From Pontibacter sp. HSC-14F20 (GTDB taxonomy: Bacteria; Bacteroidota; Bacteroidia; Cytophagales; Hymenobacteraceae), in assembly GCF_019599265.1 (NCBI RefSeq), contig NZ_JAHZTC010000016.1, positions 1 to 64,000 of the forward strand: a stretch of 64,000 bases of DNA, written 5' to 3'. The notes under the pieces were generated by a model that was not told the origin of the DNA, made no database searches, and saw nothing but the letters and a program-made list of their open reading frames with translations. Positions 1,603 through 64,000 of this stretch are shown one piece after another (positions within the stretch are counted from its first letter, which is position 1; each line of letters opens with the position of its first letter). The position numbers and the translations under genes are program-made.

Positions 1603-2508
1603 TTACGAGGTATAAACAGCGCGTAGCAGAAGTATCAGAAAAAACGCCAAGCTGATACAAAGTGACGAGATCTTGTTCATGCGCATCGTGTTTTCGAAGT
1701 TTACCTCCTCGGGGTTCTGCCATGACCTTCGCACCCAACTCAGGAAAAAATAAGTAATTGGAGCGGTGAAAAGTAGGAAGACCAGAATGTTGAGCAACTG
1801 ACCCAACGCCAGGTATAGCCCGATCAGAAGGGCTGCTCCCAAGCTCAGGGCTATACCTGCAAATACAAAAGTGCCCCGTATACCTAGCAGCAAACTCAGT
1901 GTTTTGTCTCCTCGTGCGCTGTCTTCCTGGTGCTGGTAAATTTGTGTGAGCGGATACGAACCGCAGAGAAAAGACGTGCTTACCAGGGCAAACCAAATAT
2001 TGGGTGCTTGCAGAACCTGGCGAAACTCCAGATCAGATCCCACCTGTACCATCAAAAAAGTGAAGGCTCCCTGAAAAATTGTGACAACCAGTGTGCTGAT
2101 GACCGGGTATTTCTTGAGCCGAATGTCACGGTTGCTGTAAGCCTTGGAAACCAGCAGGTATAGCGCAACCATCAGGGCAAACAGAGGAGAAAGTAAGAAA
2201 CTGAGCAACAGGGCCAGCACATCAAATAGCAGCACCAGGTGAAACAACTCCTGCGTGACTTTGGGCGGTTGCCGCAGCCCACCGATGCTGCCTTCGTCCC
2301 GGTCGTGGTATGAGTTGTAACCGTTGCTGGCAGGGTATACCAACACATGCAGAATCAGGAATACGGCCGCTGCCCGCCACCAGGCATAGCCGTCTGTCAC
2401 GCTAAGCGCAAACCAGTACACCGGCATCAGGTATACCGAAAACGGAATCCGCATGAGGGTCAGGGCGCTGCCGTATTTTCCGATGACAGGTATAGCGACT
2501 GGTTTCAA
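1603..2508 (-). CDS. UbiA-family prenyltransferase
   Basis: An integral membrane protein of 301 residues with about nine hydrophobic segments. The first Asp-rich motif appears as NGYNSYHDRDEG (near residue 63) and the second as HQEDSARGDKTL (near residue 195). These acidic motifs bind Mg-diphosphate of the prenyl donor in UbiA enzymes, which attach isoprenoid chains to aromatic or lipid acceptors in the inner membrane. The start is a TTG, since no in-frame ATG lies nearby upstream. It is followed by a small membrane protein and preceded, across a low-complexity inverted repeat, by a methyltransferase-like gene. The substrate is not evident. It is not clearly MenA or UbiA itself. Confidence 0.85.
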   Translation of the reverse strand: MKPVAIPVIGKYGSALTLMRIPFSVYLMPVYWFALSVTDGYAWWRAAAVFLILHVLVYPASNGYNSYHDRDEGSIGGLRQPPKVTQELFHLVLLFDVLALLLSFLLSPLFALMVALYLLVSKAYSNRDIRLKKYPVISTLVVTIFQGAFTFLMVQVGSDLEFRQVLQAPNIWFALVSTSFLCGSYPLTQIYQHQEDSARGDKTLSLLLGIRGTFVFAGIALSLGAALLIGLYLALGQLLNILVFLLFTAPITYFFLSWVRRSWQNPEEVNFENTMRMNKISSLCISLAFFLILLLRAVYTS

Positions 2509-2512
2509 GGTG

Positions 2513-2650
2513 TGAATTGTTGATTGTTATTTGTTGATTGTTTTTGTCTCATTTACCAAAACTCTTTCATCTTAGGTTTTTAATTCTCAGATCAGACTTT
2601 ACTCTTTTTTAATGTTGAAACCTGCCTATACAGCAATCAGCAATTTTATT
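2513..2650. repeat. Low-complexity inverted-repeat locus B
   Basis: TTGTTGATTG-type units at 2513-2543 face CAATCAGCAATT-type units at 2631-2650. The inner 14 bases match at 12 positions when one arm is reversed and complemented. It fills the gap between the methyltransferase and UbiA genes. It is weaker than the other loci of this kind. Confidence 0.4.
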
Positions 2651-3461
2651 AATCCGGATAGCCAAGCAGATAAATAACCTGCTGACCCGGTCCGGTACCG
2701 ACAATGCCGCTGCGCCAGGTATAGCCGGGCGGCGTATGAACGTGCGCCAGCAACTCGTCGAGCATCCGTGGGTTGTAAAGCCTGAAAAGCGATACCAGGC
2801 CATCCCACATGATGCCCAGCGGGATAATTGGTATAAGGTACGTGAACAGGTGTCGGCTGAGTTTAAAAGGCCTGATAAAAGGTGTTACCAGCAGAATGAC
2901 GATCGGGAAGGTAAGTAGGAAAATGATCAGTTCGGCCCATGTCTTGCCACCCCCCTCGAAGATGCCGATAGGTGCCCGTTGGTCGGCGGCATTTTGCAAA
3001 ATGGCCGCTGCCTGCTGCGGTCTGAAATGATGAAATGAGGAAAAGATGGTGCGTAAGCCTTTTACCTGCGGCGGTACATTGGTGACATCCACTGGAGAGG
3101 CAATGAAATCGATCAGACCACCGGACTCGGCTTGCAGAAATTCGTAGGCGCCGATGTTAGGGTATAAGTCAGATAAGGTGACATGCACAGGCACTCCCAT
3201 GCGCTGGCTCAGTGCTTCGCGTATACCTGCTATGCCGCCGCCGGCGCCGGAGCAAAGGTCAGTGAAGTGCGTCTGGCCGCTGCGACGGAGCAGATCCTCC
3301 AGCAAAGGTATAGCGGGTCCATAGGCTCCGAGATTCGAGATCATGAAGCGCAGGAAATCGAGCATGCCCTGGCGGAAAATGTGCGGAAACCAGGGCTGGT
3401 CTTCTAGCTCAAATAGGTGCAGGCGGAAGTTCAAGGGCAGCAGCGATTGTTTTGTTCGCAT
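2649..3461 (-). CDS. SAM-dependent methyltransferase-like protein with C-terminal membrane helices
   Basis: The protein has 270 residues. Residues ~65-75 (TDLCSGAGGG) match the glycine-rich SAM-binding motif I, followed by VTLSDLYPN, the usual acidic end of strand beta-2. A SSFHHF segment corresponds to the post-motif region of class I methyltransferases. The C-terminal third has two strongly hydrophobic helices (ELIIFLLTFPIVILLV; LFTYLIPIIPLGI), so the enzyme is probably membrane-anchored. It lies upstream of a UbiA prenyltransferase on the same strand, which suggests modification of a prenylated lipid or quinone-like compound. That pathway is inference. Confidence 0.7.
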   Translation of the reverse strand: MRTKQSLLPLNFRLHLFELEDQPWFPHIFRQGMLDFLRFMISNLGAYGPAIPLLEDLLRRSGQTHFTDLCSGAGGGIAGIREALSQRMGVPVHVTLSDLYPNIGAYEFLQAESGGLIDFIASPVDVTNVPPQVKGLRTIFSSFHHFRPQQAAAILQNAADQRAPIGIFEGGGKTWAELIIFLLTFPIVILLVTPFIRPFKLSRHLFTYLIPIIPLGIMWDGLVSLFRLYNPRMLDELLAHVHTPPGYTWRSGIVGTGPGQQVIYLLGYPD

Positions 3462-3485
3462 ACTGCCCTCTTCTTATAAAGGTTG

Positions 3486-3947
3486 CTAGGGTAGCGTCGT
3501 GCCGCGCTGGCTCATCCAGGGATGCAGCTCCATGATCAGCTTGCCGGCTTTTACGGCCGGATCTGCCTCTGTCAACGCCTGCGCTTCCTCCAAAGTGGCT
3601 ACATCAAAAATGAAAATACCACGCAGCTCACCATTGTCCAAGAACGGGCCAGCCATAACCAGTTTACCATCGGCGGCCATCTTCTGGATATGCGCCATGT
3701 GGCCACGCTGGATGCTGTTCACTTCGGCTGTGTCGGTTGGCTGGTAAGGGCCTTTTTTGAGCAAAGCCATGTAATAAGTTTTCATCTGGCTCATGTCCAT
3801 CTCACCAGACTTTTTAGGAGCTTCCTGCGCTGTAGTAGCCGGAGCCTTTTTGGCAATAGGCTTTGCTTTGGATTGTGCCTGGGCACCTAACGTGCAGCAA
3901 AGGCAGAGTGCCAGGGCTATACCTGTGGTCAGTAGCAGTTTTTTCAT
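3486..3947 (-). CDS. Exported YciI-domain protein
   Basis: I place the start at the ATG at 3947, which gives MKKLLL and a clean signal peptide ending near GAQAQ. A longer frame from 3995 exists but adds an uncharacteristic N-terminus. After a Lys/Ala/Pro linker, the C-terminal ~90 residues carry the YCII-like fold: GHMAHIQKMAADGKLVMAGPF, then GIFIFDVATLEEA, then a terminal helix with DPAVKAGKL. YciI-like proteins are small ferredoxin-fold proteins with a conserved His (here in RGHMAHI); their activities are mostly unknown. An exported version is common in Bacteroidetes. It sits 24 bases from the start of the methyltransferase gene but need not be functionally linked. Confidence 0.75.
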   Translation of the reverse strand: MKKLLLTTGIALALCLCCTLGAQAQSKAKPIAKKAPATTAQEAPKKSGEMDMSQMKTYYMALLKKGPYQPTDTAEVNSIQRGHMAHIQKMAADGKLVMAGPFLDNGELRGIFIFDVATLEEAQALTEADPAVKAGKLIMELHPWMSQRGTTLP

Positions 3948-4046
3948 GGGGTGAGTTGGGTTTGATGTTTTGGAATAGGTAAACGATTGTGCCACTATGC
4001 GGTGGTAATTGCAAGTAGAGGAATGATATGAGCTTAAATTGCCATC

Positions 4047-4691
4047 CTAGTGAATAGCGATTTTTTGACTGCTCTTTACGAAAAGTAACGAATCAACTGG
4101 CACTCTTTCCAGCTTAATTTTATATAATATGTAGCCTGACTGGGTAGCTGAACTTAGTGGTTGACTCAGGACAAAATTTGCTTTCTTGACGTAGAGCTTT
4201 ATCGTATCTACTTTAGTGTAATCTGTAAAAGTAAAAGGTTGCCATTTTGGTCAACCAGGCTGTCATCCAGGGAATAAGTTTTCAATTGTGTTAACTCATC
4301 TTGCAAAAAAAAATTGTTCTCTAGAAGCTGTATCATTTCTTGCGTTGGTAAGCATGGATCCATTTGTCGTACTACCTGCTGTATATTTCAATTCAGGCTT
4401 TCCCGAAGGAGATTTGACATAGTAACTATTAAAGATGAAAAGTCGATGCTTCAATTTGATAGGCTCATGAACCCATATGCTACCAGGGTTAAAATCTAAA
4501 GAATCACTTATTAAAAGTTTACTTATAATAGGCAAGTATTCCGCTGCAAGAAACCCGTTTTCTTTAGCTAGTTCTCTGTCTAACCAGATACTATAACTTT
4601 CAGCATTTCTAACACTATTCACTCTAAGTGCTAGCAGCATTAGAAGTATCATAGCAATGGCTACAAGAAATGCTCTTTTAAGTTTAGCCAT
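4047..4691 (-). pseudogene. Frameshifted gene for a membrane-anchored or exported protein
   Basis: The frame from the ATG at 4691 has an N-terminal hydrophobic anchor (LVAIAMILLMLLAL) and runs 131 codons to a TGA just after a run of nine T (minus strand) at ~4305-4313. Dropping one T lets the reading continue as LQDELTQLKTYSLDDSLVD. A second shift near 4250 of opposite sign then gives KWQPFTFTDYTKVDTIKLYV and further well-formed sequence to a TAG at 4047. Together they make a plausible ~215-residue protein. Base composition is clearly more AT-rich than the neighbours, suggesting foreign origin. Alternatives are a truncated but expressed 131-residue protein, slippage at the T9 tract, or sequencing error. 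No family is recognised. Confidence 0.55.
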
Positions 4692-4766
4692 TATTCAGAC
4701 TTTCTAAAGTACACTATAAGTGATAATCATGCTAAGCTAGTACTGATGTTAGCTAAAAGCAATTCT

Positions 4767-5276: not shown

Positions 5277-5459
5277 GGGGGTATAGGGAATGCTATGCAC
5301 AAAGATAGGCAGGGCTGCCAAACTTATAACAGCTTCTGTATATCCCTAACTAAGTTTTATGCGTTTCTGGGAAAGTATTTGTACACAAAAGGTATATTTG
5401 CAGTAGATTAGAGAGAAGTGTTCCGGTAAAAAACGGGCAATCTGCCCCGATAATAAAAC

Positions 5460-7805: not shown

Positions 7806-7825
7806 GCTATACCTGAATCTGGGAA

Positions 7826-10244: not shown

Positions 10245-10949
10245 ATGCGAGTAAAAGGATTGTTGGTAGCGGCCATGTTGCTGGTATCAGGTATGGCGAG
10301 TGCGCAGGTGATGCGTGTAGAAGAAAACGAACAGGTGGTAAGCGGCATAAAGCGCAGCGGTCAGCAGCTGAGCGTGCAACTGGACCCTAAGTTTGTAGAG
10401 AAGATCTGGAAAGACCATTTATCGAAGGAAGCGGGTAAGGTGAAGCACTCCAAAGGCGTTTATACGGTAGAGGAGGCAAAGCTCATCAGCATCAGCAAGC
10501 AGCCTGTGCGCGTTATTTCTACGGTTGGAACACATGCCAAGGGAAGCTACGTGTGGTGGTCGCTTGACATGGGCACAACTCACCTTGATAAAAACGAGAC
10601 ACCGGAGGTATACGCGGCGGCTGAGCAGTTTATGGAAAGCTTCGGCAAAAAGCTGTACCAGGAAGACGTGCTGTTGCAGATCAATGAAGCCGAAGCGGTG
10701 CTGCGCAGCACCAAGAAAGAGCAGGACCGTGTCGTGAAGCAAGCCAACGATTTGCAACTGAGCATCGAGCGAAACAAGAAACGCAAGCTGGAGCTGGAAG
10801 CTGAACTGGTGCGCAATGCCGACGAACTGCGCCAACTGGAGCAGAATGTGGAGTTGAACGTGAAGCAGCAGGAAGCCAGCCGCCAGCAGGTGCAATCTAT
10901 GGAGAAAGCTGTAGATGAGGTGAGAACAAAATTGCGCGACATCAAATAA
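10245..10949 (+). CDS. Exported protein with C-terminal coiled coil, unknown function
   Basis: The protein has 234 residues. The N-terminus (VKGLLVAAMLLVSGMASAQ) is a signal peptide with an AxA-type cleavage site near residue 20. Residues ~30-130 form a mixed domain containing WWSLDMGTTHL. Residues ~140-234 are a long charged coiled coil rich in Glu, Lys and Gln with heptad-like spacing (EAEAVLRSTKKEQDRVVKQ and later VQSMEKAVDEVRTKL). It is probably periplasmic. No family is recognised. The stop codon's last base starts a 16-base palindrome made of two opposed octamers, and an IS remnant follows 20 bases later. Confidence 0.65.
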   Translation: MRVKGLLVAAMLLVSGMASAQVMRVEENEQVVSGIKRSGQQLSVQLDPKFVEKIWKDHLSKEAGKVKHSKGVYTVEEAKLISISKQPVRVISTVGTHAKGSYVWWSLDMGTTHLDKNETPEVYAAAEQFMESFGKKLYQEDVLLQINEAEAVLRSTKKEQDRVVKQANDLQLSIERNKKRKLELEAELVRNADELRQLEQNVELNVKQQEASRQQVQSMEKAVDEVRTKLRDIK

Positions 10950-10964
10950 GGTATAGCTATACCT
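10949..10964. repeat. Perfect palindrome formed by two opposed octamers
   Basis: AGGTATAG and CTATACCT are joined head to head into a 16-base perfect palindrome starting at the last base of the stop codon of the preceding gene. It stands five bases from the end of an IS4-family remnant. Confidence 0.75.
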
Positions 10965-10969
10965 GTGTA

Positions 10970-11920
10970 AACATGACTCATCCCCGGAGTTTGAATCAGG
11001 GATAAGTAGAGCAGATTCCATAAGTTGGCCAGTGCCAGGCGGATGCGGTAAAGCGGTGTGGGAGTTTTCCTGCACCGCTTTCCTGTTCTATGGCAGCCCT
11101 GCCGGAGCAGGTTGGAGATGGCCTGGCGCAGCTCCTTTTCCAGCAGCGAGAGCAGGAAGGCGTAGACGAGCGTGACGATCTGCAAGAGTTTCATTCTATT
11201 GTCCCAGAACCAGAGCCTGCAGCTCTCCATGCCCATCTCCGACTTGTTGAAGCGGAAGGCCTGCTCGACCTGCCAGCGGCGGGCGTAGGCAAAGACCAAC
11301 CGCCAGGCGTCCCGATCCGTGTGCACCTCCTCATTGGTGAGCAAATACCGGGCTTGATGCGCAGGGTTCGCTTGGCCTTCATGCTGCGCACAGCACACAG
11401 GCCCTGGCTTTTGAGGCTTTCGGTTTTCTCCTGCACGCTCTCGTCCCAGAGCAAGAGGGGCAGCTCCCGCTCCTGCTCCAGGAGCCTATCCACATACGTT
11501 TGGGCTTCACCCGTCAGGTAATCAGTGATGGCTTCGGCCGACCATTTTTTGCTCCTCAACAGGTTGGAGAGGCGCTTGGTGCCGGCCGGCGCCTTGTGGG
11601 GGGAGAGCAGCACCCCGCCCAGCTCGCTCAAAAGCAGGCCCGAGGAGCGGCTGCGGTGGCGCACCAGTGCCTGGCACAGGGCCTGGAAGGTCAAAACAAG
11701 GCGGTGGTCCAGCAGCCGGTCGAGCTGCACCAGGAAGGGAGCGAGGAAATCCTCCAGGCGGTGGGAGAAAAAACGGGCCTGGGAGAGAACCTCAGCCTGG
11801 AAAGATGCGTTTTTAGAAGTAGGAAACATAAAAACCTCCTGTTTTTAAATGGCCTTACAACCACAAAACAGGAGGTTCTTCTTTTTCATCCCATTCCTAA
11901 ACTTCGGGATGAGTCATGTT
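10970..11920 (-). mobile_element. Internally deleted copy of the IS4-family element
   Basis: The ends AACATGACTCATCCC (10970 onward) and its complement at 11906-11920 match the ends of the full element at 27007-28461. The copy is 951 bp against 1455 bp. The missing ~505 bp correspond to about 27577-28082 of the full copy. At the junction both parent sequences share a CC-GG-TA-like microhomology, suggesting a simple recombination or replication-slippage deletion. With both ends kept, it could still be mobilised in trans. I see no clear target duplication. Confidence 0.85.
10978..11829 (-). pseudogene. IS4-family transposase with internal deletion
   Basis: The start at 11829 and the first ~160 codons (MFPTSKNASFQAEV, WDESVQEK) parallel the intact transposase at 27098. 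After RIKPG the sequence jumps to the region of YLLTNEEVHTDRD in another frame. The second catalytic Asp is lost, and the reading frame is broken because the deletion is not a multiple of three. The C-terminal part keeps the YARRWQVEQAFRFNK signature. One extra C near the 3' end also removes the normal stop. The product cannot be an active transposase. The start is preceded by the same SD-sequestering hairpin (11833-11876) as in the intact copy. Confidence 0.85.
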
Positions 11921-11934: not shown

Positions 11935-12522
11935 TTAGAGTTTCATCCAGCGCTGTATTTCCTGTTCGGCGAACTGTTCGTTGCGCCAGCCTACAAACTT
12001 GCTTTTGGAGGTTGGGTTGTGATGCACAAACCATTGCTGCAAAATGGCTTTAGCAGCAGGGTAGTCGGCCGTGAAGCTGTTATAGTCTGCAGCGTTTATG
12101 GACCGTTCGCTCGGCCTGGCTGGTACTGCTATGATCTTGTGGTCCAACTCACCGGCCGTTTCCAGTTGCAGCACCCCCACCGGGATTACTTCCATCACGG
12201 TGCCTGTAGCTACACCTCCGGCCAGCACGACTACTTCCAAAGGTTTTTTCTGTGCGTTGGTTTCGGTAGAAGGTATAAAACCGAAATTGGCCGGGTAGGG
12301 CAGGAAAGATATGATGCGATCCTGGCCGGCCTGCTGCTCTGCTTCAAATGTCTTGGTCTGTTGGTTATAGTGGTGTTTTATAGCACTGCCAGCCGGCACC
12401 TCGATCACGGCCTGCAACTGTTTCTTGGCGTTGTAAGTGGGTAGGGATGCATAGTCTGTCTGACAGGACGCCAGCAGGGCCAGTAGTAGCAACAGGAAGG
12501 TATAGCGTTGTAGTGTTATCAT
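11935..12522 (-). CDS. Lipoprotein homologous to family I inorganic pyrophosphatase, active site altered
   Basis: The protein has 195 residues. The N-terminus ends in LLALLASC, a lipobox, so the mature protein is probably anchored in the outer or inner membrane facing the periplasm. The body follows soluble pyrophosphatase: VIEVPAGSAIKHHY, DRIISFLPYPANFGFIP, then VVVLAGG, VIPVGVLQL and ELDHKIIAVPARP. In active enzymes the loop before VLV reads DGDPxD; here it reads AQKKPLE, so two metal-binding aspartates are replaced and a third is Glu. The later Asp (ELDHK) is kept. I infer either loss of hydrolysis or a different activity. The gene lies between an IS remnant and the rplS terminator. Confidence 0.8.
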   Translation of the reverse strand: MITLQRYTFLLLLLALLASCQTDYASLPTYNAKKQLQAVIEVPAGSAIKHHYNQQTKTFEAEQQAGQDRIISFLPYPANFGFIPSTETNAQKKPLEVVVLAGGVATGTVMEVIPVGVLQLETAGELDHKIIAVPARPSERSINAADYNSFTADYPAAKAILQQWFVHHNPTSKSKFVGWRNEQFAEQEIQRWMKL

Positions 12523-12614
12523 GGGTAAAGGGGAGGCAAAGGGTAGAGAGGTATAGCTGCAAATATAGCAAGCCTGGCCATAGCAGGTATAGCTTGGCTG
12601 GCAAAGCAGGTATA

Positions 12615-15518: not shown

Positions 15519-16503
15519 ATGGAATCTATGGCAAAAGCCAAACACTATGTGGGCATTGACATCTCCAAGGACTACTTCGATGTGGCCCTGCCCCAGCAAG
15601 AGAAGTACCGGCACCTGAAGCTAAGCAACAGCCTGAAGGGCTTTGGGAAGCTACTCGAGGCTCTACAGGGACTACAGGCCTGCTGTGTGATGGAAGCCTC
15701 AGGCCCTTATTACCTGCAGCTGGCCACCTACCTGCACGCCAAAGGGATAGAAGTAAGTGTAGTGAACCCACTCTCTATCCGTCGCTTCTGCCAGATGCGC
15801 CTCACCCGGGCCAAGACAGACAAGGCCAAGACAGACAAGAAGGATGCCCAGATGATCGCCCGCTACGGCCTCTCTGAGCAGCCAGCGCTTTGGGTGCCGG
15901 AGGCAGGACACCTGTTGGAGCTACGCCAGCTGCAGATGGTGGCCGAGAGCCTGGAGAAGACCCTGCACCAGTACCGACGCCAGCTGGAGGCCCTTGCAGC
16001 GGCCCCACAAGTGAATAGACAGGCCAGAAAGAGCCTGGAGCAGTCGCTACACTACATCGAAAAGCAGGTGGAGAAAATAGAGGCCCAGATGCTTTTGCTT
16101 ATTAAACAGCACCACCAGGAGCTCTTTGAGCAGGTGACCAGCATTCCAGGACTGGGCAAAAAGAGCGCCCTGTTGCTGGTGGTCATCACCGGCGGCTTCA
16201 CCCGCTTTGCCCACTACAAGCAGCTGGTCAGCTACCTGGGCCTGAGCCCGAGGATCTACGAGTCGGGTACCAGCGTCAGGGGCCGGAGCAGGATCTGCAA
16301 GATGGGCATGAGCCGGGTCAGGGCTGTACGTGTGCTCCTGGTCGGCCATCAAGGCCAACCGGGCCTGCCGGGAGCTCTACGAGCGGCTCCTGGCCAAGGG
16401 GAAGGCCAAGCGCCTGGCTTTGATTGCGGTGGTAAACAAGCTCCTGCGCCAGGCCTTTGCCGTGGCGACTAAACAAGAGTTCTACTTAGAAAAAACATAT
16501 TAA
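15519..16503 (+). pseudogene. IS110-family recombinase, frameshifted near the C-terminus
   Basis: The frame from ATG 15519 (or 15528) begins HYVGIDISKDYFDVAL, the DEDD-type RuvC-like catalytic start. It has TDKKDAQMIARY further on and a transposase-20 domain with SIPGLGKKSALLL and YLGLSPRIYESG. After MSRVRA (~16322) the frame goes wrong. The +1 frame then gives LYVCSWSAIKANRAC, YERLLAKGKAKRLALIAVVNKLL and a TAA at 16501-16503, the normal family ending. The conserved Ser region lies around this point, so the enzyme is probably inactive. A sequencing error is the alternative. Length if repaired is ~328 residues, normal for IS110. Confidence 0.85.
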
Positions 16504-27097: not shown

Positions 27098-28453
27098 ATG
27101 TTTCCTACTTCTAAAAACGCATCTTCCCAGGCTGAGGTTCTCTCCCAGGCCCGTTTTTTCTCCCGCCGCCTCGAAGATTTTCTTTCCCCTTTCCTGCTCA
27201 CCCTCGACAAGCTGCTGGACCGGCGCCTGGTGGCAACGTTTCTGGGGCTCTGTCAGGCACTGATCCGCCACCGCAGCCGCTCCTCGGGCCTGCTGCTCTC
27301 GGAACTGGGCGGGGTGCTGCTCTCGCCCGGCAAGGCCCCTGCCGGCACCAAGCGCCTCTCTAATTTGCTCCGAAGCAAGAAGTGGTCTTCCCAGGTGATC
27401 GCCGACTATCTGGCCGAAGGGGCCCGGCAGTATGTGGAGCGGCTCCTGGAGCAAGCCCCTGAGCTGCCCCTCTTGCTCTGGGACGAGAGCGTGCAGGAGA
27501 AGACAGAGCGTATCAAAAGCCAGGGTTTGTGCGCCGTGCGCAGCACAAAGGCCAAACGGGCGCTCAGAATCAAGCCTGGCTATTATGATCCCCCTACCCG
27601 CCAGCCGGTGCACGTGCCGGGCTTGCGGTGGGTGGGGCTCTTGTGCTGCGGCCTGTGGCAGGCCCCGCAGCTGGCCCGCTTTGCCTGGTGGAGTAGCCGG
27701 GGCGAGCAGGCCACCTCCCTGGCCCAGGTGCGCCTCTGGCTGCTGTTATGGGCCAGGGAAACCTTCGGCAAGGCCGTCTTGCATGTCTTTGACCGCGGCT
27801 ACGCCTCGGCCAGGTGGCTGGGCCTGCTGCTGGCCCGCTCGGATCGCTTTTTGCTGCGCTGGCCCTCAAATTACAAGCTGCTGGACGTGAAGGGGCTTTT
27901 GAAGAATGCCTACCGCTTCTCGGTGGGCAAGAAAGCCACCTCCTCCAAAGTAGTGCGCGACATGGTGCGCCAGCTCACCTACCGCCGCAGCCTGGTGTGG
28001 ATGCGCTGCCTGCACCCCGACTACCCCGACCAGCCGCTGACGCTGATCATCTGCCGGCCGGGCAAAAAGGGCCGCCCGCCCTGGTACCTGCTCACAAACG
28101 AGGAGGTGCACACGGACCGGGATGCCTGGCGCCTGGTCTTTGCCTACGCCAGAAGGTGGCAGGTGGAGCAGGCTTTCCGCTTCAACAAATCGGAGATGGG
28201 CATGGAGAGCTGCCGCCTCTGGTTCTGGGACAATAGGATGAAGCTTTTGCAGATCGTCACCCTGGTGTATGCCTTCCTGCTCTCGCTGCTGGACAAAGAG
28301 CTCCGTGAGGCGATCTCCAATCTCTTGCGGCAGGGCTGCCATAGAACAGGAAAGCGGTGCAGGAAAACCCCCACACCGCTTTACCGAATCCGGTTGGCAT
28401 TGGCCAACCTCTGGAATCTGCTCTTTCTATCCCTGACTCAAAGTTCGGGATGA
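27098..28453 (+). CDS. IS4-family DDE transposase
   Basis: The protein has 451 residues and is intact. The catalytic acids fit the IS4 pattern: Asp129 in LLLWDESVQ, Asp232 in LHVFDRGYAS and Glu357 within YARRWQVEQAFRFNK. The latter keeps the Y-x2-R-x3-E-x6-K signature. The N-terminal ~100 residues are basic and helical, probably DNA-binding. It cuts and joins the element ends. It has a strong SD (AGGAGG), unlike host genes here. The stop lies 8 bases inside the right end. Confidence 0.92.
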   Translation: MFPTSKNASSQAEVLSQARFFSRRLEDFLSPFLLTLDKLLDRRLVATFLGLCQALIRHRSRSSGLLLSELGGVLLSPGKAPAGTKRLSNLLRSKKWSSQVIADYLAEGARQYVERLLEQAPELPLLLWDESVQEKTERIKSQGLCAVRSTKAKRALRIKPGYYDPPTRQPVHVPGLRWVGLLCCGLWQAPQLARFAWWSSRGEQATSLAQVRLWLLLWARETFGKAVLHVFDRGYASARWLGLLLARSDRFLLRWPSNYKLLDVKGLLKNAYRFSVGKKATSSKVVRDMVRQLTYRRSLVWMRCLHPDYPDQPLTLIICRPGKKGRPPWYLLTNEEVHTDRDAWRLVFAYARRWQVEQAFRFNKSEMGMESCRLWFWDNRMKLLQIVTLVYAFLLSLLDKELREAISNLLRQGCHRTGKRCRKTPTPLYRIRLALANLWNLLFLSLTQSSG

Positions 28454-28524
28454 TCCATGTTTTATCAACTCCAGGTATAGGACTGCTTTCCCGTTTCAGA
28501 AAGATGCCAGGTATAGCGTAACGA

Positions 28525-42966: not shown

Positions 42967-43031
42967 AGAATGTTGTTGGGCTGTTCCAAAAATTATGTAG
43001 CTTTAAAGGAAGCAAACCGTTGATCTTAAAA

Positions 43032-44363
43032 ATGATACACCCTTATACCTTCCTTCAAAAAACACTGCCTCTCTGCCTGGGACTGCTGGTTACCATACCT
43101 GCTCTCGCACAGAACTCAAAACTGTTGACGAAGGCCAACACCATGGCCGACAAACTGGAACCGAAAGTGATTGAGTGGCGTCGTGACTTTCACCAATACC
43201 CTGAGCTAGGCAACCGCGAAACCAAGACAGCCGAAAAAATTGCAGACCACCTCCGAAAGCTAGGTATAGAGGTACAAACCGGCGTAGCTCATACCGGTGT
43301 GGTGGGCATCCTGAAAGGTGGAAAGCCCGGTCCTGTCGTGGCCCTGCGCGCGGATATTGACGGCTTGCCTGTAACAGAGCGTACGGATGTGCCATTTGCC
43401 TCTAAAGAGCGCAGTACTTACAACGGGCAGGAAGTAGGTGTGATGCATGCCTGTGGCCACGACACGCACATTGCCATGCTGATGGGTGCCGCCGAGGTGC
43501 TGGCAGGTATGAAAAGCGACCTGAAGGGAACCGTGAAGTTTATTTTTCAGCCTGCTGAGGAGGGATCTCCGGTAGGGGAGGAAGGCGGTGCGGCTCTGAT
43601 GGTAAAAGAAGGCGTGCTCGACAAGGGACCTAAGCCGGAAGTGATTTTTGGGCTGCACATCAACTCACAGACGGAGGTCGGCACCATTAAGTATACGCCG
43701 GGCGGGACCATGGCGAGCGCCGATATGTTCCGCATTAAAGTAAAAGGCAAGCAGGTACACGGTGCCTACCCGTGGTCAGGTATAGACCCGATTGTGGTGT
43801 CAGCGCAGATCATAAACGGTCTGCAGACGATCATTAGCCGGCAGACGCACTTGCCGGAAGCTGCCGCTGTGATCACGGTTGGAAGCATCCACGGTGGTGT
43901 ACGTAACAACATTATTCCGGAGGAGGTGCTGATGGAGGGCACGATCCGGGCTTTGGATGTGGAAATGCAAAAGAAGCTGCACGAGAAACTGAAGCTCACC
44001 GCCACTAAAATTGCGGAAAGCAGTGGCGCTGTAGCCGAAGTAGAGATCATCCCGCAAACCCCTGTTACCTACAACGACCTGGCCTTAACGGAGCGCATGC
44101 TGCCTACCTTGCATACCGTAGCAGGCCGCGATAAAGTGGTACTGGCCAAAGCTGTGACCGGAGCTGAGGATTTTGCTTTCTATCAGGAGAAGATTCCCGG
44201 ATTGTTTCTGTTTGTAGGAGGTATGCCGAAAGGTGAAAATCCGGAAGCAGCCCCCCCGCACCATACACCTGATTTCTTTATAGATGAAAGCGGCCTGAAA
44301 CTTGGCGTGAAGACCCTGACCAGCCTGACATTAAACTATATGGAAGGGAAAGGTAAAAAGTAG
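43032..44363 (+). CDS. Exported M20-family metal-dependent amidohydrolase
   Basis: The protein has 443 residues from the ATG at 43032, which gives a signal peptide (YTFLQKTLPLCLGLLVTIPALAQ). A TTG at 43020 is less likely. M20D hallmarks: LRADIDGLPVTE, MHACGHDTHIAMLMGAAEVL, FIFQPAEEG (catalytic Glu pair), IFGLHIN and GAEDFAFYQEKIPGLF. These bind two metal ions. The family cleaves N-acyl amino acids, hippurate or similar amides; the substrate is unknown. Export to the periplasm is common for Bacteroidetes members. It converges on the T9SS cargo gene. Confidence 0.9.
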   Translation: MIHPYTFLQKTLPLCLGLLVTIPALAQNSKLLTKANTMADKLEPKVIEWRRDFHQYPELGNRETKTAEKIADHLRKLGIEVQTGVAHTGVVGILKGGKPGPVVALRADIDGLPVTERTDVPFASKERSTYNGQEVGVMHACGHDTHIAMLMGAAEVLAGMKSDLKGTVKFIFQPAEEGSPVGEEGGAALMVKEGVLDKGPKPEVIFGLHINSQTEVGTIKYTPGGTMASADMFRIKVKGKQVHGAYPWSGIDPIVVSAQIINGLQTIISRQTHLPEAAAVITVGSIHGGVRNNIIPEEVLMEGTIRALDVEMQKKLHEKLKLTATKIAESSGAVAEVEIIPQTPVTYNDLALTERMLPTLHTVAGRDKVVLAKAVTGAEDFAFYQEKIPGLFLFVGGMPKGENPEAAPPHHTPDFFIDESGLKLGVKTLTSLTLNYMEGKGKK

Positions 44364-44388
44364 GCAGGTATAGTATAGACAGGTATAG

Positions 44389-44424
44389 AAAAGCCTCCCT
44401 CAGCACCAACTGAGGGAGGCTTTT
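44389..44424. terminator. Bidirectional terminator
   Basis: AAAGCCTCCCTCAG and CTGAGGGAGGCTTT close a 6-base loop, with A and T runs. It lies between the convergent M20 and T9SS cargo genes. Two AGGTATAG octamers stand just before it (44366-44388). Confidence 0.85.
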
Positions 44425-44435
44425 TATTGAATAAT

Positions 44436-45842
44436 TTATTGCAGCACGAGTTTTCCCGTTTCGATGGGCGAGAGCTGGCTGGTTAAGGTATAGGTATAGA
44501 GTCCCGAGGCCAGTTTGGCCGGACGGGCAAAGTCGTTTCTTCCCGGCCTCAAGGTATAGCTCGCCACCACCTTGCCCGTGATGTCGCGCACCAGCAGGTG
44601 GAGGGCCGGCAGATCGGGTGCCTCGATAGTGAATTCGCCCCGCGCCGGGTTCGGGTATAGCTTCGGCTTTTCAGTTGGGAAATCGTCACCGGAAGAGAGC
44701 GGACGCCGCTGCTCGCCCACATAAATGTACGCGAATGCCCAGGCATCCTCCACTTTGCTATAAGGGAGCCTGTCTGCCGTAAATTCTTCTACCGGTCTGC
44801 CTCGCATGCCAATAAGGTAGGGTTCTGTACGCTCCATGTCAGGGCCGGGCGTGAAGGAATAAGTAATGGCAAAACCATCCGCAGTATCGCGGAAAGTAAG
44901 CGACGTGTTGATCAGTTCTAAGGTATCAATCTCCCCGAATGGCCTGGCACTTAGTGGCAAGTCACTGGCCGGATTCTTTTTCAGGTAAAATTCCAGCTTC
45001 ACCGGTTGGCCTGGCCAGGTCTGAATTGAACCATCGCCGTTCACCGTCAGGCGGTTCTTGTTCAGGAGACTCATTTTCGGTTGATCCGCCCGCTCGGTCA
45101 CCTGGAAAGCCATATCGACTATCATATGGCCTATTTCCCTGCCGTCACGCATTTCTGTTACTTTCAAAGCGATCACATATTCTCCTTTTTGAACGGGATT
45201 TGGCCAATGGATTTCTCCAAACTCGCTCACTGTTAACCCCTCCGGAGGCCAATAACCGGGAACATCTGCAATCTCGAAAGAAGAAGATCTGTGTTTGGGA
45301 GTCACCAACTCATACACCAGGTAATCGCCATCTTCGTCATAGGCTAAGAAATTGTGGGTCCAGGGCTCACCCGTATAGGCTCCAGTAATTGGTGCGCCGG
45401 CAAGCTTCGCCCCATGCAGATTTTGAGTAGCGGTACCTGCCTTCACGCGTGTAATTATTTTTAAATTTATCAAGTCAGTGGGTGCTGCCATATTCATGAT
45501 TCCCCCGTTCCGGTTCTCGCCAGTCCAATGCACGGTATAGTTTCCAGGCGCATCGTAGGTATGGCTCCAGGTAAAAATTTCCTTATCATAACGACTGGAG
45601 TAATGAGTAACGCTGCCTCTTTCAACCCTCGCGACCTTGCTATCACCCATACTTATGAATGCAAAAGGATCATCGGCAGATGAGGCGGCTTTTGTGTAAA
45701 GCGTAAACACAAAATCAAACTTTAGCGGATTCTCTGGATCGGCTGTATAGCTGATGTAGCCGCTGTAAATGTGTGTGGCCTGTACTAGCAACGGCGCAAA
45801 AAGCAAGGTAGCTAAACATAGAAGCAGGTATATTTTCTTCAT
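44436..45842 (-). CDS. T9SS-secreted cargo protein with type A sorting domain
   Basis: The protein has 468 residues. A signal peptide (IYLLLCLATLLFAPLLVQA) is followed by Ig-like/PKD-like beta-rich domains (GNYTVHWTGENRNGG; GEYVIALKVTEMRDG). The C-terminal ~75 residues are a type A T9SS sorting domain: KLYPNPARGEFTIEA, LLVRDITGKVVASY and ASGLYTYTL, ending in GKLVLQ. It is exported across the outer membrane by the type IX system and cleaved at the sorting domain. Ligand or activity unknown. Confidence 0.88.
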   Translation of the reverse strand: MKKIYLLLCLATLLFAPLLVQATHIYSGYISYTADPENPLKFDFVFTLYTKAASSADDPFAFISMGDSKVARVERGSVTHYSSRYDKEIFTWSHTYDAPGNYTVHWTGENRNGGIMNMAAPTDLINLKIITRVKAGTATQNLHGAKLAGAPITGAYTGEPWTHNFLAYDEDGDYLVYELVTPKHRSSSFEIADVPGYWPPEGLTVSEFGEIHWPNPVQKGEYVIALKVTEMRDGREIGHMIVDMAFQVTERADQPKMSLLNKNRLTVNGDGSIQTWPGQPVKLEFYLKKNPASDLPLSARPFGEIDTLELINTSLTFRDTADGFAITYSFTPGPDMERTEPYLIGMRGRPVEEFTADRLPYSKVEDAWAFAYIYVGEQRRPLSSGDDFPTEKPKLYPNPARGEFTIEAPDLPALHLLVRDITGKVVASYTLRPGRNDFARPAKLASGLYTYTLTSQLSPIETGKLVLQ

Positions 45843-47862: not shown

Positions 47863-47967
47863 ATAAATAATTTTTTGTTTAGAATAAATTGGTCAAATTT
47901 GTAACCCCCCTGCCGTCAAGGTTAGGTTTGTTACACCCAACGGATCTTTTGTGTTTTGGAAAATTGG

Positions 47968-49392
47968 ATGATAAAAGACTGTTCAACAGTATGGAGTAAC
48001 TGTCTACAGGTAATTAAGGAAAGTATTGGCGAGCAGAGCTTTAAAACTTGGTTCGAACCGATCAAGCCTTTGTCCCTGCGTGACAATGTGCTCACCATAC
48101 AGGTGCCTAGCCAATTCTTTTATGAGTGGCTGGAGGAGCACTATGTAGGTTTGCTGAAGAAGGTAATTTACCAGGAGATGGGCAGTGAGGGGCGCCTGGA
48201 GTACTCTATTATCGTGGATCGTGGAAACGAGTCTAACAAGCCGCAGACGGTCAACATCCCGACCAAGAAAATTCCGCAGGCTGTCGTTAATTCTTACCGG
48301 CCGGAGCAGAACTTCATCAAGAGCCCGTTCGAGTCGAAGACAATCGACCGCAACTTCCTGAACTCACAGCTGAACGGCGCCTATACCTTCGAAAACTACA
48401 TTGAGGGAGATTGTAACCGCCTGGCGCGGTCGGCAGGTTATGCCGTGGCCAACAAGCCGGGTACTACTTCGTTTAACCCGCTGATGGTATACGGCGGTGT
48501 GGGACTTGGCAAAACGCACCTGGTGCAGGCCATTGGCAACCACATCAAAAACAGCAACCCGGATAAGTTCGTGCTCTACGTGTCTTCCGAGAAATTCGTG
48601 AACCAGTTCATCGAGTCGCTCAAGACCAACAACGTGCAGGACTTTGCCAACTTCTATTTGCTGGTAGACATCCTGATCATCGACGACGTGCAGTTTTTGA
48701 GCGGCAAGGAGAAGACGCAGGAAATGTTCTTCCACATTTTCAACCATCTGCACCAGTCCGGCAAACAGATCGTGATGACCTCCGACTGTCCGCCACGCGA
48801 CCTCAAAGGCTTAGAGGAGCGTCTGTTGTCCCGCTTTAAGTGGGGCCTCACCGCCGATTTGCAGAGCCCGGATTTTGAGACACGTATGGCCATCATCCAG
48901 AAAAAGATGCAGGGCGACGGAATTGATATACCTGACAACGTAGTGGAGTACCTGGCCTACAGCGTAGACACCAACGTGCGTGAACTGGAAGGTGTACTTA
49001 TCTCGCTTATTGCGCAGTCCTCGCTAAACAGAAAAGAGATTGACTTGGAGCTTGCCAAGCAGGCCCTGAAGCATATTATTGAGGATGTAGAGACGGAAGT
49101 AAACCTTGACTTCATCCAGAAAACGGTGGCCGAGTACTTCCAGGTGAGCCTGGACTCGCTCAAAGCCAAGACCCGTAAGAAAGAAATCGTGACAGCGCGT
49201 CAGGTGGCCATGTACTTTGCCAAAGAGTTTACCAGCCATTCGCTCAAGTCAATCGGTTACCATTTTGGTGGCCGCGACCACAGTACGGTGATCCACTCGG
49301 TGCAGACTGTTTCTGATCTGATTGATACCGACAAGAAGTTTAAAGTGAGCATTCAGGAACTACAGAAGAAATTCAAGTCCAAGGCGGGTTAA
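47968..49392 (+). CDS. dnaA: Chromosomal replication initiator protein DnaA
   Basis: The protein has 474 residues from the ATG at 47968 (MIKDCSTVWSNCL); a TTG four codons earlier is less likely. Domain I: SFKTWFEPIKPLSL. Domain III AAA+: Walker A GGVGLGKTHL (176-185), Walker B LIIDDVQFLSGK and the sensor region LSRFKWGLTADL. Domain IV helix-turn-helix: ARQVAMYFAKEF and GRDHSTVIHSV, the DnaA-box-binding signature. It opens the origin. dnaN and gyrB are not adjacent, as is common in this phylum. Five octamers and two terminators follow within 150 bases. Confidence 0.97.
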   Translation: MIKDCSTVWSNCLQVIKESIGEQSFKTWFEPIKPLSLRDNVLTIQVPSQFFYEWLEEHYVGLLKKVIYQEMGSEGRLEYSIIVDRGNESNKPQTVNIPTKKIPQAVVNSYRPEQNFIKSPFESKTIDRNFLNSQLNGAYTFENYIEGDCNRLARSAGYAVANKPGTTSFNPLMVYGGVGLGKTHLVQAIGNHIKNSNPDKFVLYVSSEKFVNQFIESLKTNNVQDFANFYLLVDILIIDDVQFLSGKEKTQEMFFHIFNHLHQSGKQIVMTSDCPPRDLKGLEERLLSRFKWGLTADLQSPDFETRMAIIQKKMQGDGIDIPDNVVEYLAYSVDTNVRELEGVLISLIAQSSLNRKEIDLELAKQALKHIIEDVETEVNLDFIQKTVAEYFQVSLDSLKAKTRKKEIVTARQVAMYFAKEFTSHSLKSIGYHFGGRDHSTVIHSVQTVSDLIDTDKKFKVSIQELQKKFKSKAG

Positions 49393-49393: not shown

Positions 49394-49514
49394 CTATACC
49401 TAACTGAAACGCTATACCTAAAACAAAACTGCCGCTACTATACCTGAGTAGCGGCAGTTTTTGTTTTAAAGCTATACCTGTCGGGCTGGTTCTAAAAAGG
49501 AGAGGGCTATACCT
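49394..49514. repeat. Cluster of five CTATACCT octamers after dnaA
   Basis: Copies start at 49394, 49412, 49438, 49472 and 49507, all in the same orientation. The third and fifth lie at the loops of the two terminators here. This is the densest intergenic cluster in the window. Confidence 0.85.
49425..49466 (+). terminator. dnaA terminator with an octamer in the loop
   Basis: AAAACTGCCGCTACT (49425-49439) pairs with 49447-49461, followed by T-rich sequence. The apex contains CTATACCT (49438-49445). Confidence 0.8.
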
Positions 49515-56230: not shown

Positions 56231-56977
56231 CTAATTCCGTTTTCTAAGCCAGCTTAGCTTAAAAACTGCACTCACGGCGATGGTGGCCATCATGGAGCCA
56301 GTCAGAAACGACACAACTATTCCCATTGGAGAACGCATAAAGGCACTGGCGTATAGAGCGTAGCCCATAAAGGCTATACCTGCTATACCTATACCTGACC
56401 AAAACACAATCTTTTGCTTAAGACTCACTTTGTCAGGTATAGCCACGGTTGGCTGGCGCCAGGTATAAAGCAGTATGAGCGGCGCGCCCACCAATGTGCT
56501 GCTATGTTGCACGATGCGGCAAAGCATAACCTCGAATCCCATCACATTTACCATGCTTGTCAGTAATGGCCATCTACTTGCAAAGTGGCCCGTCTCGTGC
56601 GTGAAAGCGTCCCAGAAAATATGTGAAGCGGCGCCTAGTATGGCTGAAAAGGCAAAGACGAACCAGCGCTCTTTTAGAGAATTTAACCAAGCTGGTTCCG
56701 GTACGGCTAAGGCGCGGCGTTTAAACCAATCGGGGAGGTGTGCTGTCGCTGGCCGCCGCACGATCAGGTGAAAGATGGTTGCTATAGCCAGCGCGACAGG
56801 CAGGTTAAAGTACAGCAAGCCCTTCAGGCTATGGCCGCTGTGCTTAAAAAAGGGGAGAAGCAGGAAATACTGAAAATCCGGTGCGATGCTGCCTGTAATA
56901 AGACCGGTAGCAGAAAACCAGCGGCTGTGTTTAAGCAAGGGCAGTACGGCAGCAGGATGCGCGGCAGTAAACGGCAT
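56231..56977 (-). CDS. DUF4184-family membrane protein
   Basis: The protein has 248 residues. It begins MPFTAAHPAAVLPLLK, the family start, followed by GSIAPDFQYFL with conserved His and Asp (TAAHP, PDF). Further on, AASHIFWDAFTHETGHF has more conserved His and Asp. These resemble the membrane-bound metal-dependent hydrolase fold. About six membrane helices. The stretch GIGIAGIAFMG is encoded by stacked octamers at 56374-56396. Function unknown. Confidence 0.8.
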   Translation of the reverse strand: MPFTAAHPAAVLPLLKHSRWFSATGLITGSIAPDFQYFLLLPFFKHSGHSLKGLLYFNLPVALAIATIFHLIVRRPATAHLPDWFKRRALAVPEPAWLNSLKERWFVFAFSAILGAASHIFWDAFTHETGHFASRWPLLTSMVNVMGFEVMLCRIVQHSSTLVGAPLILLYTWRQPTVAIPDKVSLKQKIVFWSGIGIAGIAFMGYALYASAFMRSPMGIVVSFLTGSMMATIAVSAVFKLSWLRKRN

Positions 56978-58984: not shown

Positions 58985-59123
58985 CGGCACAGAGCGTGAT
59001 ACCTGAAACCAAAGATATTATTTTTTAGCCTATGTTCTGAAACGATTTATTAATATTCCCTTATATTTTGGAGAGAAGTGCCAACGCTGCTACCAACGCG
59101 ACAATTTAGACGGGCATCAGCAC

Positions 59124-59140
59124 TTGGCACAGCTCTTGAC
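59124..59140 (+). promoter_or_regulatory. Sigma-54-like element upstream of lon
   Basis: TTGGCAC (59124-59130), 5 bases, then TTGAC. The -24 half is perfect, but the -12 GC is GA. Further GTGCCAA/TTGGCAC copies lie at ~59077 and ~59193. Confidence 0.3.
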
Positions 59141-59258
59141 ACTAATACACTCCACAGGCATAAAGCGGAATTTCCGTTATCTTTATGTCAATTTGGCACT
59201 GATACAACCTATGAACTATACACTGAAGAACTTCCTTAACCATCTTTTAATCGGAAAC

Positions 59259-61697: not shown

Positions 61698-61752
61698 CGG
61701 TTGCTGATTAACTTTAGTTAGTAACCGGATTTTCAATTTTTAAAAAGAGAAA

Positions 61753-63150
61753 ATGTTAGAATCAATAGAGCATTTAACACCAGCCCAGATTGTAGAGGAG
61801 CTGGATAAATATATTATCGGGCAGAAAGATGCCAAACGCAACGTAGCCATCGCGCTCCGCAACCGCTGGCGCCGCATGAATGCCGACGAAAGCATTCGCC
61901 GCGAGATCGTGCCCAACAATATCCTGATGATTGGCGCCACCGGTGTGGGTAAAACAGAAATTGCCCGCCGTCTGGCCAAGATCGCCGACGCACCTTTCAC
62001 CAAAGTGGAAGCCTCCAAGTTTACAGAAGTAGGCTACGTGGGACGCGATGTGGAAAGCATGGTGCGCGACCTGGTAGAGCAATCGGTGAACATGGTGAAA
62101 ACCAGGAAAAAGGAAGAAGTGAAGCAGAAAGCCGCCGAGGTGGTGGAAGACATCATTCTTGATGCACTTATACCTCCGATTCAGGGTGGTCGCGCGACAC
62201 CAAGTTTCTCAAGTACTTCCGAGCCAAACGGTATGCCCGATAACGATTACGAACTGAACGAGCGCACCCGCGAGAAATTCAGAGAGAAGATCCGCAATGG
62301 TGAGCTCGAGGACCGCAAAATTGAAATCAGGGTACAGCAGAGCGCCATGCCAGGTATGGGCGTGATGGGGCCAGGTATGGACGAGGCTTCAATGATGAAC
62401 ATCCAGGAGATGATCAGCGGCATGATGCCCAAGAAGACCAAAAAGCGCAAAGTAACTATTGCCGAAGCCCGCAAGATTTTGCTGGAAGAAGAAGCCGCCA
62501 AACTGATCGATATGGATGAGGTGAAGGAAGAGGCGATCTTCAAGGCAGAGAACTCTGGCGTTATCTTCATTGACGAGATTGACAAAGTAGCCAGCGCAAG
62601 CAGCAAAGGTGGCGGTGGACCTGACGTGAGCCGCGAAGGTGTGCAGCGCGACTTGTTGCCGATTGTGGAAGGCTCTACGGTGAACACCAAGTATGGCGTC
62701 ATCAACACCGACCATATTTTGTTCATCGCCGCCGGTGCATTCCACGTGGCCAAACCATCGGATCTTATACCTGAGTTGCAAGGCCGTTTCCCGATTCGTG
62801 TGGAGCTGCAGAGCCTGACCAAAGATGACTTCTACCAGATCCTGAAGTTCCCGAAAAATGCCTTAACAAAACAATACGAAGCGCTGCTGAGAGCAGAGAA
62901 CGTAGAGTTGAGCTTTGCCGACGAAGCGCTGGATGAAATCGCTTCCATCGCATTTGAAGTAAACTCAGAAGTAGAGAACATCGGTGCCCGTCGTCTGCAC
63001 ACGGTGATGAGCCGCCTGCTCAACGACATCCTCTTCGACGTGCCGGACAAAATCGGCGCTAACGCCCACATCGTCGTAAACCGCGAGATGGTGCTCGAAA
63101 GGCTGTCTGACATGGTGAAGAACCGGGATCTGAGCCAGTATATTCTTTAA
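61753..63150 (+). CDS. hslU: ATPase subunit of the HslUV protease
   Basis: The protein has 465 residues. N-terminus: YIIGQKDAKRNVAIALRNRWRR. Walker A GATGVGKTEIARRL (61-74), the I-domain with an acidic insertion near 130-230, Walker B GVIFIDEIDKVA and the sensor-2 region GARRLHTVMSRLL. The C-terminus YIL is the HslV-docking tail. The peptidase partner hslV is not in the window. HslUV degrades damaged proteins in heat shock. A terminator-like hairpin follows. Confidence 0.96.
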   Translation: MLESIEHLTPAQIVEELDKYIIGQKDAKRNVAIALRNRWRRMNADESIRREIVPNNILMIGATGVGKTEIARRLAKIADAPFTKVEASKFTEVGYVGRDVESMVRDLVEQSVNMVKTRKKEEVKQKAAEVVEDIILDALIPPIQGGRATPSFSSTSEPNGMPDNDYELNERTREKFREKIRNGELEDRKIEIRVQQSAMPGMGVMGPGMDEASMMNIQEMISGMMPKKTKKRKVTIAEARKILLEEEAAKLIDMDEVKEEAIFKAENSGVIFIDEIDKVASASSKGGGGPDVSREGVQRDLLPIVEGSTVNTKYGVINTDHILFIAAGAFHVAKPSDLIPELQGRFPIRVELQSLTKDDFYQILKFPKNALTKQYEALLRAENVELSFADEALDEIASIAFEVNSEVENIGARRLHTVMSRLLNDILFDVPDKIGANAHIVVNREMVLERLSDMVKNRDLSQYIL

Positions 63151-63172
63151 AGTTCAGGAGTTGGGATGGTAG

Positions 63173-63192
63173 GGGCAGGTCGCGACCTGTCC
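63173..63192. repeat. Palindrome with a CAGGTCGCGACCTG core
   Basis: The 14-base core (63176-63189) is a perfect palindrome, extended by partly matching G/C flanks to 20 bases. From memory GGGGCAGGTCGCGACCTG-type palindromes are dispersed repeats in several bacterial genomes. It lies 23 bases past hslU and has no T run. Confidence 0.5.
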
Positions 63193-63277
63193 GAATCTTG
63201 ACCGGTCCTTGCAGTAAAGGCGTAAGCACTAAACCCGTGGCTGATATATAAATGCGGGTCTGTGACTTGTGCAAAGA

Positions 63278-63317
63278 AAGGCTGGTGTTTCTGTGAAGGC
63301 AGAAGCACCAGCTTTTT
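63278..63317 (+). terminator. Terminator after hslU
   Basis: GCTGGTG (63281-63287) pairs with CACCAGC (63306-63312) with a second short stem (TTCTG/CAGAA) inside, then TTTTT. Confidence 0.65.
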
Positions 63318-63411
63318 GGGTTGTGAAAACCTCTGTCAACAGGTATAGGTATAACCAAATCTTGAATCCCATTCGTACTTTAAGAGAAGAACTCATAACT
63401 CCAAAACTTTC

Positions 63412-64000
63412 ATGAACTACTACTTCATCACCGGAACGAGCAAAGGTATAGGCAAAGCCATTGCGGAGGAATTGCTTCAGGACGAGAACAACGTTGTGAT
63501 TGGCGTGTGTCGTAACAGCACCATACAGCACAAAAACTACCGCCACCAACCCCTCGATTTTTCGGATATACCTGCCGTGGAGCATAACCTGCACAAGGTG
63601 TTTATTCCTTACAGTGACGCCGAAAAGCTTGTGCTGATTAACAATGCCGGCGTGTTGGGCGATATTGGTTATGTAGGAGAAGGTATGCCGAATGAACGTT
63701 TTGAGTTTGTGTTTGACGTGAACGTGATTGTGCCCGCCATGCTGATGAACAGTTTTCTGCATGTATACCAGCCGTTGCAAGTGCCCAAAGTGATTGTGAA
63801 CGTTAGCTCAGGAGCAGGGAAATACCCGATAGATGGTTGGGCCAGTTACTGTGCTTCCAAGGCAGCGATTGATATGATGTCGCAAACGGTACAGCAGGAG
63901 CAGACCGTGCGCGGCTCCGGAGTTAAGGTATTCTCCTTGTCGCCGGGTGTGGTGGATACCGCTATGCAGGAGCACATTCGGGAAAGTGATGTGGAGAAGT
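63412..64000 (+). CDS. Short-chain dehydrogenase/reductase (cut by window end)
   Basis: The frame from the ATG at 63412 stays open for 196 codons to the window end. Classical SDR motifs: YFITGTSKGIGKAIAEEL (cofactor loop), LINNAGVLGD, IVNVSSGAGK (catalytic Ser) and YCASKAA (Tyr and Lys), then SPGVVDTAM. An NAD(P)-dependent oxidoreductase near the benzil/sepiapterin reductase group by its short N-terminus. Substrate unknown. An AGGTATAG octamer lies at the cofactor loop codons. Confidence 0.85.
   Translation, partial: MNYYFITGTSKGIGKAIAEELLQDENNVVIGVCRNSTIQHKNYRHQPLDFSDIPAVEHNLHKVFIPYSDAEKLVLINNAGVLGDIGYVGEGMPNERFEFVFDVNVIVPAMLMNSFLHVYQPLQVPKVIVNVSSGAGKYPIDGWASYCASKAAIDMMSQTVQQEQTVRGSGVKVFSLSPGVVDTAMQEHIRESDVEK

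Follow-up and report, generated by a model that had tools for sequence, protein, structure and literature searches.

In the first 64,000 nucleotides of contig NZ_JAHZTC010000016.1 of Pontibacter sp. HSC-14F20 (hereafter 'the window'), the octamer AGGTATAG/CTATACCT is iterated far above expectation, and it belongs to a family of related words that is found across the genus. Forty-two of 50 Pontibacter genomes carry a word of the shape NNNTATRR, in the dialects AGGTATAG, AAGTATAA, AACTATAG, GGGTATAA and ATATATAA; these dialects track the phylogeny, and some genomes stand between two of them. On balance it is probable, judging from sequence comparison, that AGGTATAG is the local dialect of a word family like the DNA uptake sequences of other bacteria and was spread by biased transformation; the uptake, its receptor and the drive are what we infer from the genomes.

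The window contains 78 exact copies of the octamer between positions 1466 and 63451 (48 on the forward and 30 on the reverse strand), making it the most over-represented 8-mer, whilst the most over-represented 10-mer is CAGGTATAGC, with 26 copies. An earlier note on this DNA had counted about 75 copies by hand between 1800 and 63460, where about two were expected, and the count holds up well: 77 of the 78 copies lie inside that span, and 100 dinucleotide shuffles of the window gave a mean of 1.14 copies and never more than 4. An order-3 Markov model, which is inflated by the word itself, expects 5.4. The whole-genome count proposed in the same note is likewise far above expectation, since the 4.64 Mb genome to which the window belongs (G000) has 5041 copies (2620 on the forward and 2421 on the reverse strand) against 133 copies (68 and 65) of the reversed word used as a control.

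Dialects of one word across Pontibacter

More than 1000 copies of AGGTATAG were found in 11 of the 44 Pontibacter genomes in which it was counted (the other 33 have 173-833), and G417 was added to this group from a 20-kb sample. The same level is exceeded by AAGTATAA in 24 of the 50 genomes and by AACTATAG in seven, three of which also have more than 1000 copies of AAGTATAA. The ratio of AAGTATAA to AACTATAG is graded (6128:907, 4476:2002, 3911:2617, 2125:6288 and 788:8208), with G336, G348, G326 and G311 forming a series between the two dialects. The assignments of G408 to GGGTATAA (12 copies in 40 kb, 1.0 expected) and of G297 to ATATATAA and ATATATGG (30 in 57.5 kb, 4.1 expected) are weaker and based on samples, and G414 is also weak, with 1201 copies of AAGTATAA against 252 of its control. 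Eight genomes (G306, G321, G366, G388, G402, G406, G416 and G418), sampled over 13-60 kb each, have no strong word in those samples.

The dialects can be placed on trees. Using a protein of the window, 31 loci were found, 25 of them in Pontibacter, five in Hymenobacter and one in Solirubrum. The top word of the Pontibacter loci is AGGTATAG in ten, AAGTATAA in eight, AACTATAG in three (P. populi, P. fetidus and P. burrus) and GGGTATAA in one (E15-1), with none in the loci of P. diazotrophicus, P. pamirensis and P. ummariensis; in the locus of isolate 903, AACTATAA and AAGTATAA are jointly top. A six-protein tree groups the ten AGGTATAG loci and the window in one supported clade, the window being nearest to Pontibacter sp. 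HSC-36F09 and P. amylolyticus; forks inside the AACTATAG clade are unresolved in this tree, and the fork at which that clade meets the AGGTATAG clade is supported at 73%. Trees of single genes, each from 30 genomes in sets that overlap but differ, require six changes for five dialect states (comEC) and seven changes for seven dialect states (a helix-hairpin-helix (HhH) protein of 750-815 amino acids), counts that carry no shuffled-label control and include G412 and G321 on long branches. The median end branch is 0.17 for the comEC loci (L148-L177) and 0.063 for the loci of this HhH protein (L244-L273).

The closest parallel is in the Neisseriaceae, where DNA uptake sequences (DUS) are short words present in thousands of copies, as dialects with a fixed core and a few differing bases that are consistent with phylogeny; one genome, that of S. 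muelleri, has two dialects, and some members of the family are word-less (PMC3630211). Pontibacter resembles this system in its thousands of copies, phylogenetic dialects, two-dialect genomes and word-less members, and its graded series recalls the two-dialect S. muelleri. It differs in the word and in the phylum, the DUS being counted as 10-mers in the same source, and in having no credible pilus ATPase (see below).

Beyond the genus, AGGTATAG stands out among 296 genomes of the phylum only in its own, the sole Pontibacter in that sample. Nor is it outstanding in the other genera of its family (76 genomes, with totals of 31-212, at most about 2.6 times the control), and the five Hymenobacter loci have no strong word. 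The top word of the Solirubrum locus is ACCTAGGG, which is non-palindromic and reaches 2808-3106 copies in three of eight genomes of genus g143 (G299, G308 and G323) and 2643, 896 and 337 copies in three genomes of genus g2 (G430, G373 and G352), where its controls have 0-11 copies. Further iterated words, TGACGTCA and CGCATGCG (both palindromes), CCCTACCC and TATTACAA, were seen in single 20-kb samples (L113 of G397, L102 of G296, L114 of G407 and L112 of G361).

Specificity and turnover of the word

Positions 3-5 of AGGTATAG are stringent, whilst positions 1, 7 and 8 are tolerant, with variants enriched up to 12-fold. The flanks of the word contribute little: C is preferred at bases -1 and +8 of AGGTATAG, C at -1 and A at +8 of AAGTATAA, and there are preferences at +8 and +9 of AACTATAG, a word that also has a wider halo of near-words, including changes at positions 1-3; elsewhere there are only traces of information. 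The uptake signal sequences (USS) of the Pasteurellaceae are also short words that are over-represented in Gram-negative chromosomes (PMC1626085, PMC1939737 and PMC12616744). The Pontibacter words are like USS in this over-representation and unlike them in that flank information is limited to one or two bases. USS occur at about one per kb and are longer, with AT-rich flanks.

The earlier note had proposed examining conservation in orthologous DNA, and here the word proved better kept than control 8-mers. In alignments of one stretch holding 25 window words, of which 16-24 were left after a filter on local identity, 44-75% of the words were identical in each of ten AGGTATAG relatives, compared with 21-51% of control 8-mers, and the words were the more often identical in every relative. 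At most one site per pair was gapped; judged from these alignments, copies arise by substitution. Between dialects, 3 of 66 alignable sites coincide, where 0.05 are expected by chance (11 loci, with rows that are not independent, counting only words in well-aligned, ungapped stretches). That only three sites coincide implies that thousands of sites have been rewritten.

The main rival to uptake, which we regard as unlikely, is that a DNA methyltransferase or a mismatch-repair bias makes and keeps the octamer, as may hold for the highly iterated palindromes (HIPs) of cyanobacteria, and that changes of the enzyme produce the dialects. HIP1 and the alternate HIPs are frequent palindromic octamers, linked to methyltransferases, with lineage-specific alternates and one-base deviations biased to the ends (PMC4390886). 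The Pontibacter words share the octamer frequency, the lineage alternates and the tolerance at the ends; however, none of the five is self-complementary, nor is ACCTAGGG, and the HIP1-like alternative offered in the earlier note is disfavoured on that ground. Near-words also speak against it, as they are generally not depleted (a small number of rare variants are seen less often than expected, the majority are not). As a candidate for a word-linked enzyme, the N6_N4 methyltransferase family PF01555 (the only family examined, PF02384, PF07669 and PF00145 not being included) does not track the word, and 14 of the 42 genomes that carry a word lack it.

Placement in genes, strands and replicons

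Gene context was determined for 557 copies in 464 kb of G000 (the window and further stretches), using a simple codon-usage gene caller that counts 19% of bases as intergenic, a share that is probably too high. By this measure 187 copies are intergenic, 147 lie in genes in the sense and 209 in the antisense direction, and 14 are at gene edges, which gives 2.12 copies per kb between genes against 0.95 within them. The sense copies divide 13/4/130 among the frames, with Gly-Ile dominant and the frame that creates an in-frame stop nearly empty; the antisense copies divide 65/62/82 (Leu-Tyr, Ile-Pro and Tyr-Thr). These figures agree with the earlier description of copies both between genes and in permitted frames (Gly-Ile, Ile-Pro or Tyr-Thr) within them. 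The same note had named a genome count near expectation, or codon bias alone with no intergenic enrichment, as outcomes that would tell against it; what was found is a large genomic excess and enrichment between genes.

Gaps of 10-1500 bases hold 3.71 copies per kb where the genes converge, 2.06 where they are in tandem and 2.19 where they diverge, and up to 50 bases from a gene's 3' end the density is 3.75 per kb. For the evenness raised in the earlier note, 23 segments of 20 kb in G000 have a mean of 24 copies and a variance of 30. Distances between copies are nearly random, except that those of 20-50 bases are too frequent (47 found, 19.5 expected). That one sense frame, Gly-Ile, is favoured, and that terminator-like hairpins (recognised by eye) contain or adjoin some of the window copies, could point to a bias in codons or mutation, to a signal in the mRNA or to the spread of a mobile repeat. 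Such an origin is very improbable: the placement of the copies (an intergenic density twice the genic, with every stop-free frame used), their turnover (relatives differ by substitution in ungapped alignment) and their flanks (nearly uninformative past one or two bases) all speak against any of these as the sole cause.

The complete genome G342 has 10-19 copies per 20-kb region all round the chromosome, and over 20 spaced regions 150 copies lie on the G-rich strand, assigned by the sign of GC skew, against 141 on the other. In the contigs of G000 the summed counts by GC-skew sign are 295 vs 262, with single contigs lopsided (C2, 69:35). The strand-symmetry check raised in the earlier note therefore finds no replication-strand bias in G342. 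Copies are scarce on the second contigs of three genomes, which are probably plasmids: 0.05 per kb (60 kb) against 0.72 on the main contig (420 kb) in G342, 0.11 (80 kb) against 0.50 (60 kb) in G364, and 0.10 (40 kb) against 0.55 (20 kb) in G415. A dense, chromosomal word that is scarce on second contigs could be bound by a protein that organises or segregates the chromosome, or could be a word for recombination of the Chi or FtsK-orienting polar sequence (KOPS) type. We consider this improbable. Words like Chi and KOPS are biased to the leading strand, so the missing strand bias disfavours them, and weak selection acting site by site could hardly explain thousands of rewritten sites. The poverty of second contigs in the same cells also counts against a methyltransferase or repair bias, though these contigs are possibly recent arrivals.

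Within the window, copies cluster locally. Two stand head to head on opposite strands with no spacer (AGGTATAGCTATACCT, 10949..10964), just past a transposase fragment: by eye, the open reading frame (ORF) 10580-11398 contains a piece of the transposase of ORF 27098..28453 (forward strand, DDE_Tnp_1). The latter ORF itself has no copy, the next ones downstream being at 28473 and 28509, and there is none in the IS110-type transposase ORF 15519..16472 (forward strand). Three same-strand copies occupy 95 bases before a terminator-like hairpin (12498..12592, forward); five adjoin such a hairpin at the 3' ends of the convergent ORFs 43020-44363 (forward) and 44436-45842 (reverse) (44366..44559, forward); and five, some of them inside terminator-like hairpins, lie past ORF 47956-49392 (49394..49514, reverse), the hairpins and the dnaA-like name of this ORF being assigned by eye with no search. 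Four more fall in 69 bases (56374..56442) within ORF 56231-56977 (reverse). The window gave no match to Rfam at gathering thresholds or in a tRNA scan.

Transformation genes and the uptake reading

If the word is read during uptake, a transformation system would have a receptor, at the surface or in the periplasm, that prefers word-bearing DNA, and fragments with the word would enter the cell and recombine more often. Copies arising by point mutation would then spread through biased allele replacement to about one per kb of chromosome, and with drift in receptor specificity the same drive would rewrite the genome, giving dialects and two-dialect intermediates. The route could run through ComEC, DprA and a protein with three HhH stretches, without type IV pili, as in Riemerella. 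Riemerella anatipestifer is naturally transformable without pili; the genes essential for its transformation include those for ComEC, DprA, ComF, RecA and an HhH protein, as well as others that resemble no well-characterised uptake machinery, and no genome word is mentioned in the available parts of the report (PMC8459023). Pontibacter is likewise in the Bacteroidota and has matches to comEC and dprA in all 50 genomes, together with an HhH protein of 304-346 amino acids (compared with that of Riemerella by domain description only), which is matched in 50 of 50 genomes, is open in 49 and is broken in G380; the copy in G386 has three HhH_3 stretches.

In the window's own genome all three genes are damaged (stretches L214 (C13:10001-26000), L215 (C76) and L275 (C9)). 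In dprA there is a frame change, with a stop at residue 131. The comEC gene also changes frame, has stops at 202 and 294 and lacks part of its interior, whilst in the HhH gene a single stop lies some 15 codons past the first Met. All three also have internal stops and frame changes in G380. Other G386 ORFs matched in these stretches are clean in all 28 cases in G000 and in 16 of 17 in G380, where the exception sits at a stretch edge (two antisense ORFs were replaced by the opposite genes, and stops before the first Met or the conserved part, one case, were set aside), and sequencing error is an unlikely source of the damage. Joint damage in these two genomes only, of 50 and with different dialects, suggests that comEC, dprA and the HhH gene act as one module. 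The comEC of G412, the genome with the most AACTATAG copies, is divided between two frames and contains no stop (L159). The window's species has probably lost competence recently, to judge by its broken genes. No decay of its words was seen (2 of 17 shared sites missing, compared with 2-7 of 17-19 in relatives), which suggests that the loss is too recent to have eroded them.

Several observations weigh against biased uptake. Uptake of DUS and USS runs through type IV pili, whose machinery includes a pilin that is sequence-specific, this pilin being the DUS receptor. A search of the 50 genomes with PF00437 (PilB/PilT/GspE) gave weak matches over at most 66 of 370 positions; the cut-off was exceeded in three genomes, by at most 1 bit, whereas 14 of 14 control genomes were positive (the scoring took in 31 of the 32-45 first-look candidates of most genomes). 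With no credible type IV pilus ATPase, any uptake machinery would not be classical, and on this result the known DUS/USS receptor system seems to be missing from Pontibacter (pilins and secretins were not searched for). The eight word-less genomes have stop-free matches to comEC, dprA and the HhH gene, so these genes do not predict the word, and the same eight genomes keep a weak excess of AAGTATAA, at 1.3-3.7 times control. The window's species looks damaged in competence yet retains its words, and the early stop in its HhH gene might be bypassed by a later start codon. No receptor for the word was found, the surface candidate examined being DUF5689 (PF18942), with pilins and secretins outside the search. 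DUF5689 is present in 22 of 50 genomes, comprising 18 of the 42 with a word and 4 of the 8 without, and not in G000; so patchy an occurrence argues against its being what reads the word, and the Riemerella surface candidate of this family thus does not track the Pontibacter word. Three of the 22 loci, inspected by eye, show respectively a SusC-like neighbour, a SusD-like neighbour and a position within a long nuclease-like protein; the first recalls the Riemerella pair of a surface protein and a barrel with a carboxypeptidase-like domain. Searches of the open-access literature turned up no data on transformation or uptake in these species.

Biased uptake is nevertheless favoured, because the thousands of rewritten sites, the mid-switch genomes, the halo of near-words and the word-poor second contigs fit it. 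Of the three options in the earlier note, a likeness to uptake words has the best support, above all through lineage-specific dialects with mixed intermediates; the density, the non-palindromic form and the turnover by substitution also stand on its side, whilst the pilus ATPase result and the inferred nature of uptake leave the proposal partly borne out. The note's remark that it knew of no described uptake word in this phylum agrees with the open-access literature, in which none was found among the matches listed (preprints and most subscription papers lay outside the scope); a text search there for the octamer gave 539 matches, of which the 20 listed are unrelated. To our knowledge, uptake words are so far known from two proteobacterial families with pilus-based uptake. 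We give about an even chance to the wider proposal that Pontibacter has a pilus-less, sequence-specific uptake system, the first in the Bacteroidota, with a receptor that reads an 8-base word, at least five drifted dialects and genomes in mid-switch, and with ACCTAGGG marking part of two other genera. If true, the dialect family would represent an independent origin of uptake words and would offer a handle on how DNA crosses the outer membrane in bacteria without pili, and the genomes in mid-switch from AAGTATAA to AACTATAG would suit models of uptake specificity co-evolving with genome content.

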